A program made the translations under genes and the position numbers. Positions 16,703 to 63,750 of a stretch of DNA of 64,000 bases are shown in pieces (positions within the stretch are counted from its first letter, which is position 1; every line of letters begins with the position of its first letter). Source of the stretch: Rikenella microfusus DSM 15922. GTDB lineage: Bacteria; Bacteroidota; Bacteroidia; Bacteroidales; Rikenellaceae. The stretch covers positions 868,001 through 932,000 of the forward strand of contig NZ_KE386488.1 in NCBI RefSeq assembly GCF_000427365.1, given 5' to 3'. Under the pieces are notes generated by a model. The model made no database searches and was not told the DNA's origin. It saw nothing but the letters and a program-made list of their open reading frames with translations.

Positions 16703-16722
16703 GATATTTCGTGATTTTTAAT

Positions 16723-17042
16723 GGTTCGATTATCCGCTCTTTCAGGTTTGAGGGGATTGTTCTTTCTTTGAAAAGAAAGAACCAAAGAAACTTTCGAGCA
16801 GGTTTGCGGCGCCTCAGTTTGTCAGAAGCCTTTTCTTGGTGGACTTCTTTATTCTGTAACGGATAGGGGGCATCGGGTAACGACATGAATAGCCCCCTAT
16901 CCGTTACAGAACAAGCTCATTAAAGAATAGGTCATCCGATAGGCTCAGGAGATGCGAAGCATCTCAAAAAGTTTTTCTGGTTCTCTTTGTTCACAAAGAG
17001 AACAGTTCACGCAAACCCAAACAATACGATAATCGAACGATT
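16723..17042. repeat. intercistronic palindromic element A2
   Basis: About 320 bp. Arms are GGTTCGATTATCCG and CGATAATCGAACGATT. Internal hairpins: GTTCTTTCTTTG/AAAGAAAGAAC, a 19-bp central stem (16852-16870 with 16893-16911; TTCTGTAACGGATAGGGGG side), GAGATGCGAAGCATCTC and GTTCTCTTTGTTCACAAAGAGAAC. The stop codon of the 17042-17500 gene touches its right end. Its left end is 20 nt before the next start. Confidence 0.9.
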
Positions 17043-17500
17043 TAAATCACGATACGGCGCAGGGCGAAGACATAGCCGTCGCCCGGCCGCGAGACAGATA
17101 TGGCTCCGCCGCACGAGGCCCCGCAGAGCGAGGTCCGCCACGAAGCGAACGAACGGGCGGAAGACTCCCGCCCCAGATAAGCAAGAAAAATATCGGAAGA
17201 CTGAAAGACAGGACTCGACAACTCCCGTCGCAGTCCCGTCAGCCACGAGCAGCGCACCCCGCCTCCGCCCCCGTTCGCCGGGCGTCCCGACACCGAAGCC
17301 GGATCCGCCGCAGGCGCGAGATACCACGTATAACTATCCTGCAAAGCGAAATCCGAAGAGGTGCCCTCCGCTACCAGCAACTCCGCCCCGGCCGGCGAAC
17401 CGGCGCACGCCTCCCCCCTCTCCGCCGGGAAACGGAACACCCCGGAAGACAGCAACAGCACCGTACACACTACAGATAGATATACCGCCAAACGTCGCAT
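17042..17500 (-). CDS. small exported hypothetical protein
   Basis: A 152-residue predicted secreted protein of unknown function. The N-terminus is a clear signal peptide (MRRLAVYLSVVCTVLLLSS). The mature part is rich in Ser, Gly and Ala with scattered cysteines (EACAGSP, GVRCSWLTG, TSLCGASCGG), so disulfides are possible. It starts 40 bp after the PAP2 gene on the same strand, and its TAA abuts repeat element A2. No family is recognised. Coding status is supported by the signal peptide and operon position, not by homology. Confidence 0.6.
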   Translation of the reverse strand: MRRLAVYLSVVCTVLLLSSGVFRFPAERGEACAGSPAGAELLVAEGTSSDFALQDSYTWYLAPAADPASVSGRPANGGGGGVRCSWLTGLRRELSSPVFQSSDIFLAYLGRESSARSFASWRTSLCGASCGGAISVSRPGDGYVFALRRIVI

Positions 17501-21810: not shown

Positions 21811-22277
21811 GATCGGTTCGTTTATTCGTGCTATTGGGTTTGAGGGCCTGTTTTCTCTAACATCGGTGTGTTCGTTTCCTTTCTCGCCGCTCGCCAAAGC
21901 CCGACAGCGGTCTCCGGTTCTTCCGGCAACGACGGCTGCGGACAAAGAGCACCGGGAAAACCGACGGTGCCGTCCGCGGACCGTAAATACCCTCGCGGCC
22001 GAGGCCGACCGAAAGAAAGCGGAACCGTACTCTTCGAGATGTCTCATGCGTCTTCCGAGTTTACCGGGTACCCCGTACTCTCGGAATTTCCTGCCGAAAC
22101 AACGGTTTGCACTTCAAGCCTTATTTCCGGCCTTGCGCCGCCGTCTCGACCGAAAAATATCCGACGTACAAAGGGTTGCGGAGCCTGAGACGTAACGGAA
22201 CCGACTCAAAAGTTTTCGATGCCGCTTTTTACAGAAAACGGCAGCCTATCCTGCCGCAAATACGGATAAACGAACGG

Positions 22278-41176: not shown

Positions 41177-41262
41177 GCTTTTTCGGCTCGTGCCGGACCC
41201 TCCGGGTCTTTTGCCCGGGTTTGCACCGCTTCACATCGTCCGGCGCGGAGCCGAAAGGGAGG
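41177..41262 (+). repeat. repeat E, copy 1
   Basis: Core TTTTTCGGCTCGTGCCGG...CTCCGGGTCTTTTGCCCGGG...GAGCCGAAAGG with AT-rich outer arms TATTTTACAC and GTGTAAACGTATA. Copy 2 is at 48601-48732. Both are imperfect palindromes outside genes. Confidence 0.65.
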
Positions 41263-46315: not shown

Positions 46316-46914
46316 CCGTTCGTTTATTTGTACGTATAGTGTAGAGTCCATTGTTCTTTCTTTGAAAAGAAAGAACCAAAGAGCCGAAACAAAGAGGAAA
46401 ACCAAGGCAACCTGCACGCTTCGGGTTCCGGAATACTGTTGTCCGAAACGACGGCCTGCACCTAAACCTGAGGCTCGGCCTGTCGCCCTCCCCCCGTGGC
46501 GCAAAGCGCCAGGGCGACAAGGCCGGCGATTCTGCGAACCGCAAAACAACGGACTGTCGTTCCGACCGAAAATCCTGAAGGAAAAGAGTATCTGCCAAAC
46601 TCAGGAGATGCGATCTCGAAAAGTTCGGCTTCGCCTTTTCCCGGCGCCTCGGCCATCCGAACGAGTTCGATGGCGCTCGGCTGCTGCGTCGGTTTTCTGG
46701 TTCTCTTTGTTCACAACCGACGCTGCCAGCGCATCCGGAGACCGCTTGCGGGCTATGGTAAGCGGCGAGGAGGAACCGAGTAGCGTTCCGAGACCCAAGA
46801 CCGTTCACGGTCTTTGGCAAGGCAGCACGAGGAAGCCGCAGGCAAAACGAGCGTAGCGAAGTTAAAGAGAACAGTCGCCTCAAACCTGAACAGTACCAAA
46901 TAAACGAACGGATA
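46314..46914. repeat. intercistronic palindromic element A3 (lspA-response regulator), enlarged
   Basis: About 600 bp. The left terminus (TAACCGTTCGTTTATTTGTAC) includes the lspA stop. The right terminus (CAAATAAACGAACGG) ends 10 nt before the next ATG. It keeps the left hairpin GTTCTTTCTTTG/AAAGAAAGAAC. The central stem is replaced by GC-rich sequence, and the right hairpin GTTCTCTTTGTTCAC...AAAGAGAAC is split by about 150 bp (46715-46863). Frames inside are translations of repeat sequence and are not credible genes. Confidence 0.85.
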
Positions 46915-48600: not shown

Positions 48601-48732
48601 CGATATACCGATTCGTTTTCATGGATGCTTTTTCGGCTCGCGCCGGCCCTCCGGGTCTTTTGCCCGGGGGTGCGCCGCCTCATGCCATCGGGGGAGGAAC
48701 CGAAAAACGCGGGTAAAAGTTATCGGTATATC
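48601..48732 (+). repeat. repeat E, copy 2
   Basis: Outer arms GATATACCGAT (48602-48612) and ATCGGTATATC (48721-48731) enclose GCTTTTTCGGCTCGCGCCGG...CCGGGTCTTTTGCCCGGG...GGAACCGAAAAACGC, the same core as 41177-41262. Confidence 0.7.
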
Positions 48733-58093: not shown

Positions 58094-58418
58094 AACCGTT
58101 CGTTTATTCGCACTGTTTAGGTTTGAGGCGACTGTTCTCTTTGTGAACAAAGAGAACCAGAAAAACTTTTTGAGATGCTTGCGCATCTCTTGAGCCTGGC
58201 GGATGACCTTTGCCTTTGAAAGCTTGTTCTGTAACGGATAGGGGACTTTAGTATCGTTATACCCGATGTCCCCTATCCGTTACAGAACAAAGAAGTCTGT
58301 AAGAAAAGGTTTTCGACAAACTGAGGCGTTGCAAACCTGCTCGAAAGTTTCTTTGGTTCTTTCTTTTCAAAGAAAGAACAGTGGACTCTACCCTCAATGT
58401 ACGGATAAACGAACGGAT
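58094..58418. repeat. intercistronic palindromic element A4
   Basis: About 325 bp in opposite orientation to A1, A2 and A5. Arms AACCGTTCGTTTATTCGCAC and GTACGGATAAACGAACGG. Contains GTTCTCTTTGTGAACAAAGAGAAC, GAGATGCTTGCGCATCTC, the central stem TTCTGTAACGGATAGGGGAC/GTCCCCTATCCGTTACAGAA, and GTTCTTTCTTTTCAAAGAAAGAAC. It begins 27 nt after the lipoprotein stop and ends 22 nt before the next start. It is nearly identical to the reverse complement of A5. Confidence 0.92.
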
Positions 58419-63424: not shown

Positions 63425-63750
63425 AATCGTTCGTTTATCCGTACATTGAGGGTAGAGTCCACTGTTCTTTCTTTGAAAAGAAAGAACCAAAGAAACTTTC
63501 GAGCAGGTTTGCAGCGCCTCAGTTTGTCGAAAACCTTTTCTTGCAGACTTCTTTGTTCTGTAACGGATAGGGGACATCGGGCATAACGATATTAAAGTCC
63601 CCTATCCGTTACAGAACAAACTTTCAAAGGCAAAAGTCATCCGCCAGGCTCAAGAGATGCGCAAGCATCTCAAAAAGTTTTTCTGGTTCTCTTTGTTCAC
63701 AAAGAGAACAGTCGCCTCAAACCTGAACAGTACAGATAAACGAACGGTTA
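63425..63750. repeat. intercistronic palindromic element A5 (aspS-ftsY)
   Basis: About 326 bp. Arms AATCGTTCGTTTATCCGTAC and GTACAGATAAACGAACGGTT. It has GTTCTTTCTTTGAAAAGAAAGAAC, the central stem TTCTGTAACGGATAGGGGAC/GTCCCCTATCCGTTACAGAA, GAGATGCGCAAGCATCTC and GTTCTCTTTGTTCACAAAGAGAAC. The aspS stop TAA directly precedes its terminal TAACCGTTCG (minus strand). Its other end is 12 nt from the ftsY ATG. About a dozen differences separate it from the reverse complement of A4. Confidence 0.92.

Follow-up and report, generated by a model that had tools for sequence, protein, structure and literature searches.

The perfect hairpin at positions 16852-16911 of the window (the whole 64,000-nt stretch of Rikenella microfusus DSM 15922 DNA analysed here) is the centre of a repeated unit, family A, which is a MITE-like intergenic element of about 320 nt found in Rikenella and its relatives, with imperfect terminal inverted repeats enclosing nested hairpins. 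The two arms of the central hairpin change together from copy to copy, and the match between them is most likely preserved chiefly at the level of DNA, by template switching or inversion within hairpins and by exchange between copies. Since the arms are most likely matched in this way, the covariation is weak evidence here for an RNA structure.

Read from the outside inwards, the unit starts with an end of the TTAAYCGTTCGTTTAT type, followed by the left side hairpin GTTCTTTCTTTGAAAAGAAAGAAC, a variable stretch and the central hairpin, which has arms of about 20-26 bp and a loop of about 20 nt; beyond it lie a small hairpin GAGATGCnnnnGCATCTC, the right side hairpin GTTCTCTTTGTTCACAAAGAGAAC and the inverted end. 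Perfect inverted repeats of at least 19 bp with short loops arose in none of 20 shuffles of the window. The features of the window are as follows.

5901-6214, plus strand: whole element A1, flanked by two co-directional genes
6027-6087, plus strand: central hairpin of A1, 20-bp arms and 21-nt loop
16723-17039, plus strand: whole element A2, bounded by terminal inverted repeats of the CGTTCG type, TTAA adjoining both ends
16759-16782, plus strand: left side hairpin of A2, GTTCTTTCTT-TGAA-AAGAAAGAAC
16852-16911, plus strand: central hairpin of A2 (the feature under study), perfect 20-bp arms at 16852-16871 and 16892-16911, 20-nt loop at 16872-16891
16949-16965, plus strand: small hairpin of A2, GAGATGC-GAA-GCATCTC
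16980-17003, plus strand: right side hairpin of A2, GTTCTCTTTGT-TC-ACAAAGAGAAC
21815-22276, strand unspecified: stretch bounded by terminal inverted repeats with ends of the family-A type, different interior, without the standard side hairpins
46317-46910, plus strand: altered copy A3, with family-A ends and left hairpin, another interior and a GC-rich insert splitting the right hairpin
58097-58415, minus strand: whole element A5
58224-58290, minus strand: central hairpin of A5, 23-bp arms
63428-63746, plus strand: whole element A4
63552-63620, plus strand: central hairpin of A4, 24-bp arms

An earlier, sequence-only reading of the window had described fully complementary arms in A2, A4 and A5, all of which are present as listed; it had also given A1 a perfect stem of 19 bp, which measures 20 bp. 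The genes on either side of A1 are putatively a methylmalonyl-CoA mutase pair.

Searches of the 2.88-Mb R. microfusus genome (G000) found the left-hairpin pattern at 40 sites and the right-hairpin pattern at 33, compared with no match for the reversed control patterns of both side hairpins. Both side hairpins are present in 30 copies, with 288-400 nt between the end motifs of the CGTTCG type. The terminal motif CGTTCGTTTATNNGTAC occurs at 114 sites when up to 2 mismatches are allowed, against 3 in the control, and close pairs of end motifs, among those listed, lie about 150-600 nt apart. The sequence TTAA adjoins many ends but belongs to the palindrome, so that a target-site duplication is not distinguishable. 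Of the 30 copies that have both side hairpins, 22 fall at 0.87-1.84 Mb of the 2.69-Mb contig G000:C2. The stretch at 21815-22276 shares the terminal motif without a family-A interior, and the family to which these ends belong is wider than family A.

With A2 as the query, matches were obtained in 12 of 41 genomes, comprising every one of the 8 genomes in the genus, 4 of the 17 from the rest of the family and none of the 16 from the rest of the order. The copies occupy intergenic gaps, in some cases at positions shared by related genomes, and frequently lie 0-15 bp from the flanking genes. The flanking gene pairs were tail-head in 7 cases, head-tail in 6, tail-tail in 7 and head-head in 5, and 8 of the 33 were left unassigned by simple ORF calling; because every orientation occurs, a terminator confined to gene ends was rejected as a rule. 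At the A1 locus, the relative G004 has an element-free gap of about 30 nt, and in other relatives the site holds an element, or what remains of one, with a different interior. Sequenced phages and plasmids were also considered as carriers, and no match to them was obtained. The exact 36-mer of the left hairpin, GTTCTTTCTTTGAAAAGAAAGAACCAAAGAAACTTT, is found as a lone hairpin in records labelled Rhodospirillales (in many copies), Nitrospinota and Asaia, and likewise in records labelled Clostridia, Gemmiger and Euryarchaeota (labels as in the records). These occurrences in other phyla were rejected as members of family A, the whole element being present in none of the 10 loci read (L097, L098, L106, L112, L114, L116, L118, L123, L093 and L164).

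The claim that stem positions differ on both sides so that pairing is preserved was examined over the copies of the genome, and it stands, since stem changes are mostly paired rather than mostly unpaired. In the 37 distinct central hairpins of the own genome with stems of at least 18 bp, whose arms were extracted by script, 835 of 848 pairs (98.5%) are Watson-Crick. Shuffling the 3' letters within columns gave a mean of 612 Watson-Crick pairs and a maximum of 638, and swapping whole arms between copies left 72% of positions paired (maximum 79%). At least two Watson-Crick types are carried by 21 of 28 columns (shuffle maximum 17), with 35 further pair types (shuffle maximum 21). None of 500 column shuffles matched the observed covariation; as the shuffle does not preserve relatedness, this is evidence of matched arms and not an exact probability. 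Clean double changes are also found within one subfamily, namely AAGAACAG/CTGTTCTT versus AAGGACAG/CTGTCCTT and GGGGGC/GCCCCC versus GGGGAC/GTCCCC, and intermediates are present in the form of 13 mismatched pairs in the own-genome stems.

A larger set of 70 distinct Rikenellaceae hairpins contains 14 A-C, 9 G-U and 4 other mismatches, compared with 1456 Watson-Crick pairs. This set excludes records from outside the Rikenellaceae, identical hairpins and scores below 14, the last being a cut-off by which most of the shorter, bulged G006 stems are lost, and it includes the weak hairpin L115, possibly located outside an element. The strand could be read from co-directional neighbours in 4 hairpins, which have 3 G-U and 2 A-C mismatches; since either strand of a palindrome may be given either label, only these 5 mismatches, too small a number to separate RNA from DNA as the source, are usable in a comparison of wobble pairs. 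The layout (side hairpins, central hairpin and loop length) recurs in other genomes of the genus with unrelated stem sequences. It had been proposed that structure, not sequence, is maintained. This is correct in so far as palindromy is kept over unrelated stem sequences, but a maintained RNA structure does not follow from the covariation. That this layout recurs from species to species despite the unrelated sequences makes selection for structure possible and suggests that selection acts on a structure of some kind.

The loops, which had been thought to differ freely, are in fact shared within subfamilies and occur in both orientations. Comparison of 36 central loops of the own genome found 99 similar pairs out of 630, at a score that shuffled loops reached in 0 of 1890 cases; 63 of the 99 match in direct orientation and the other 36 only as reverse complements. 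Loop 1035800 matches loop 1263454 as its reverse complement at 20 of 20 positions, and loops 1261899 and 1668207 match loops 43370, 967392, 972878 and 1127376 in the same manner at 22 of 22. The arms around the flipped central loops keep a common orientation. Counted by variant, there are six contrasts with an inverted loop, represented by 1035800, by 2667441 versus 1900430, by 1261899 together with 1668207, by 1662605 versus 1630709, by 578918 versus 1020829, and by 1199861 versus 1419567. A tree of the element minus its loop has, for the two largest subfamilies, 5 changes of loop orientation on the best tree and 4-5 in bootstraps, of which well-supported branches force only 1. Inversion extends to the shortest loops, as 4 of the 40 left-hairpin sites in the genome have the 4-nt loop TGAA inverted to TTCA, and 2 of the 33 right-hairpin sites have the 2-nt loop TC inverted to GA. 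Inverted loops were also seen by eye, unscored, in further members of the genus (L218 versus L217 and L241, and L074 versus L080).

Inversion of the whole interior was found by comparison of related genomes. The flanks are alignable between G005 and G002, two sufficiently close genomes; both are draft assemblies, and their locus pairs were sampled unevenly. Loci L121 and L159 share a collinear match of 4.8 kb with 92.6% identity, which encloses an inverted interior of 290 nt that is 95.5% identical when inverted versus 63% when collinear. The 13 differences between the two interiors include one stem change without compensation, two stem pairs with it, and the inversion of a side-hairpin loop (GA/TC), and the two compensated changes may be separate in origin, since the related copy L230 has an intermediate combination. 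Inverted interiors are likewise present in L218/L241 (88.7%, flanking stretches 95.6%) and L221/L235 (89.2%, flanking stretches 99.3%). Relative to the flanks, the central loop has one and the same orientation in L218 and L241, and is thus flipped relative to its own interior.

Among the remaining loci, the core is inverted in part in L224/L240 (72.8%), interiors have been exchanged in L225/L243, L228/L242 and L091/L278, L163/L168 is collinear with one uncompensated stem change, L091/L277 involves a shorter form, and the element is present in L204 and absent from L205; L176/L279 and L176/L280, at contig ends, were left out, and L107/L095 is truncated by a contig end. In 5 further species pairs sharing both flanks, the orientation is the same in 3 and opposite in 2. 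The clean inversion of a whole element comes from one pair of draft metagenome assemblies. In the draft assemblies compared here, an assembly flip is unlikely because the terminal repeats are short and imperfect. Some of the inverted interiors may be ectopic replacements instead of flips in place.

Inverted long loops, matched arms and flipped interiors are found together in family A, and we therefore take the covariation to be due mainly to homogenisation at the DNA level. Family A is a non-coding, dispersed MITE-like element in which the arms are probably matched mainly through DNA-level events, the covariation then arising largely as a by-product of palindrome homogenisation. Within each hairpin, one arm would be copied from the other by template switching or strand exchange, and a template switch running through the loop would invert it; recombination via the terminal repeats, within or between copies, would flip or swap the interior. 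The element could in addition serve a structural role, either in DNA (mobility, recombination) or in RNA, although none is needed to account for the stems. A more far-reaching proposal, which we put forward tentatively and consider possible rather than probable, is that an element-specific process inverts at several levels, from loops of 2 to 4 nt through 20-nt loops to the 300-nt interior, and would thereby shuffle intergenic regions genome-wide, so that covariation like that of an RNA would arise with no selection on RNA.

A conserved RNA stem is by convention proved through compensatory changes, but here a covariation signal that is strong and statistically clean sits in DNA palindromes with visibly flipped loops and interiors, so that the same signal has another plausible source. 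Paired changes may well stem from DNA copying or recombination, and alone they show no functional RNA. Selection for RNA structure would mean that the element is co-transcribed with its neighbours, that the central hairpin serves processing, stability or termination, and that compensatory substitutions were selected. The strength of the covariation, the architecture retained with unrelated sequences, the two co-directional genes around A1 and the copies abutting genes, often at 0-15 bp, are in agreement with such selection. We nevertheless regard it as unlikely to be the main cause, since inversions of loops and whole interiors are DNA events, the mismatches of the 70 hairpins have no excess of wobble pairs, a palindrome gives the same stem from either strand, and gene pairs of every orientation flank the copies. 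Family A also lacks an Rfam family: at the gathering score, the only Rfam match was one tRNA elsewhere in the window, and weak matches to eukaryotic miRNAs were far below that score.

The inverted interiors between collinear flanks, and the mixed orientation at sites shared between species (3 the same and 2 opposite of 5), are what would be expected if a dedicated site-specific recombinase acted on the terminal repeats to flip the element, and perhaps flipped the central hairpin as well, the copies then being invertible intergenic segments spread over the genome. Bacteroidetes have invertible regions on which shared recombinases act. This explanation appears still less probable than RNA selection: no recombinase was linked to family A in this analysis, loops of 2 to 22 nt, which are too short for ordinary invertases, flip as well, and replacements are found besides inversions, which fits recombination between copies. 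Finally, insertion in differing orientations at favoured sites, with the stem subfamilies as independent lineages and neither in-place inversion nor homogenisation, would suit the terminal repeats, the dispersed intergenic copies and the element-free A1 gap of G004, but is very improbable given that the inverted interior of L121/L159 has diverged about as much as its flanks, that loops flip when the stem and surrounding arms do not, and that subfamilies separated by double changes have near-perfect arms.

Homogenisation at the DNA level, the reading preferred here, can be compared with several known systems. Like MITEs and bacterial intergenic palindromic repeats, family A is short, non-coding and foldable, with terminal inverted repeats and dozens of intergenic copies; it stands apart from MITEs by its three kinds of internal hairpin with inverting loops and by interiors that flip or are swapped between fixed flanks. 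The likeness to MITEs is one of anatomy; a target-site duplication could not be told apart from the palindrome, and no parent transposon came up in this analysis. Multicopy intergenic palindromes are also a feature of the REP and BIME repeats associated with Y1 transposases, but family A is about 320 nt long and has terminal repeats, and its own genome is without a Y1 transposase. A REP element with a Y1 (TnpA-REP) transposase was rejected on this account, PF01797 having no match in the own genome and matches in 5 of 14 control genomes. The invertible promoters (invertons) of Bacteroidetes are intergenic segments between inverted repeats that are found in two orientations, as is family A at one locus in related genomes (L121/L159). 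Family A differs from them in its many related copies, the occurrence of all gene orientations, the replacement of interiors and the very short loops that flip. No paper naming family A was found in the open-access literature searched by sequence words or keywords.

The closest parallels concern the mechanism. Template switching has been proposed to make compensatory changes and to invert loops, loop inversion being its predicted mark (Monttinen and Loytynoja 2022, PMC8794818), and the combination of the two is called there the strongest possible support for the model, such cases having proved extremely rare in rRNA. In rRNA genes, loop inversion accompanied a compensatory change in 6 cases and stood alone in 69. 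Compensatory stem changes and loop inversion are shared with family A, but the loops there are mostly of 4 nt and at most of 7-8 nt, compared with 20-22 nt in family A, which is also multicopy in one genome. Small loop inversions associated with hairpins are known from chloroplasts (PMC6005162, which cites Kelchner and Wendel 1996 and Kim and Lee 2005), where, as in family A, a loop between short inverted repeats has been inverted repeatedly. The chloroplast inversions described in that source are at single loci, whereas family A is a dispersed bacterial repeat in which the whole element is inverted as well.

With dozens of copies per genome, loops of 20 nt and a readable orientation, family A would make it possible to measure how frequently paired changes accompany a flip, a question hardly addressable from rRNA data with 6 cases (PMC8794818). 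The multi-level, element-specific inversion suggested above would, if true, provide a natural test bed for template switching as a source of compensatory changes. The case also calls for caution in naming RNA motifs from dispersed palindromic repeats.

Some further observations concern the individual copies. GC-rich inserts lie inside the elements A3 (46317-46910), L043 and L278; in A3 and L278 the insert is located within the right side hairpin and divides it, and reverse-complement forms of the insert occur at mirror positions in the two arms. Inverted matches of 8 bases are present just outside the terminal repeats of A2 (16704-16722 and 17040-17052; CGTGATTT/AAATCACG) and outside the copy at G000:C2:969344 (TGATTACA/TGTAATCA); absent at most other copies, they look like insertion into a palindrome. 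A separate short repeat, starting with CCCTCCGGGTCTTTTGCCCGGG, occurs at positions 41198-41256 and 48647-48705 of the window, with 80% identity between the two places.
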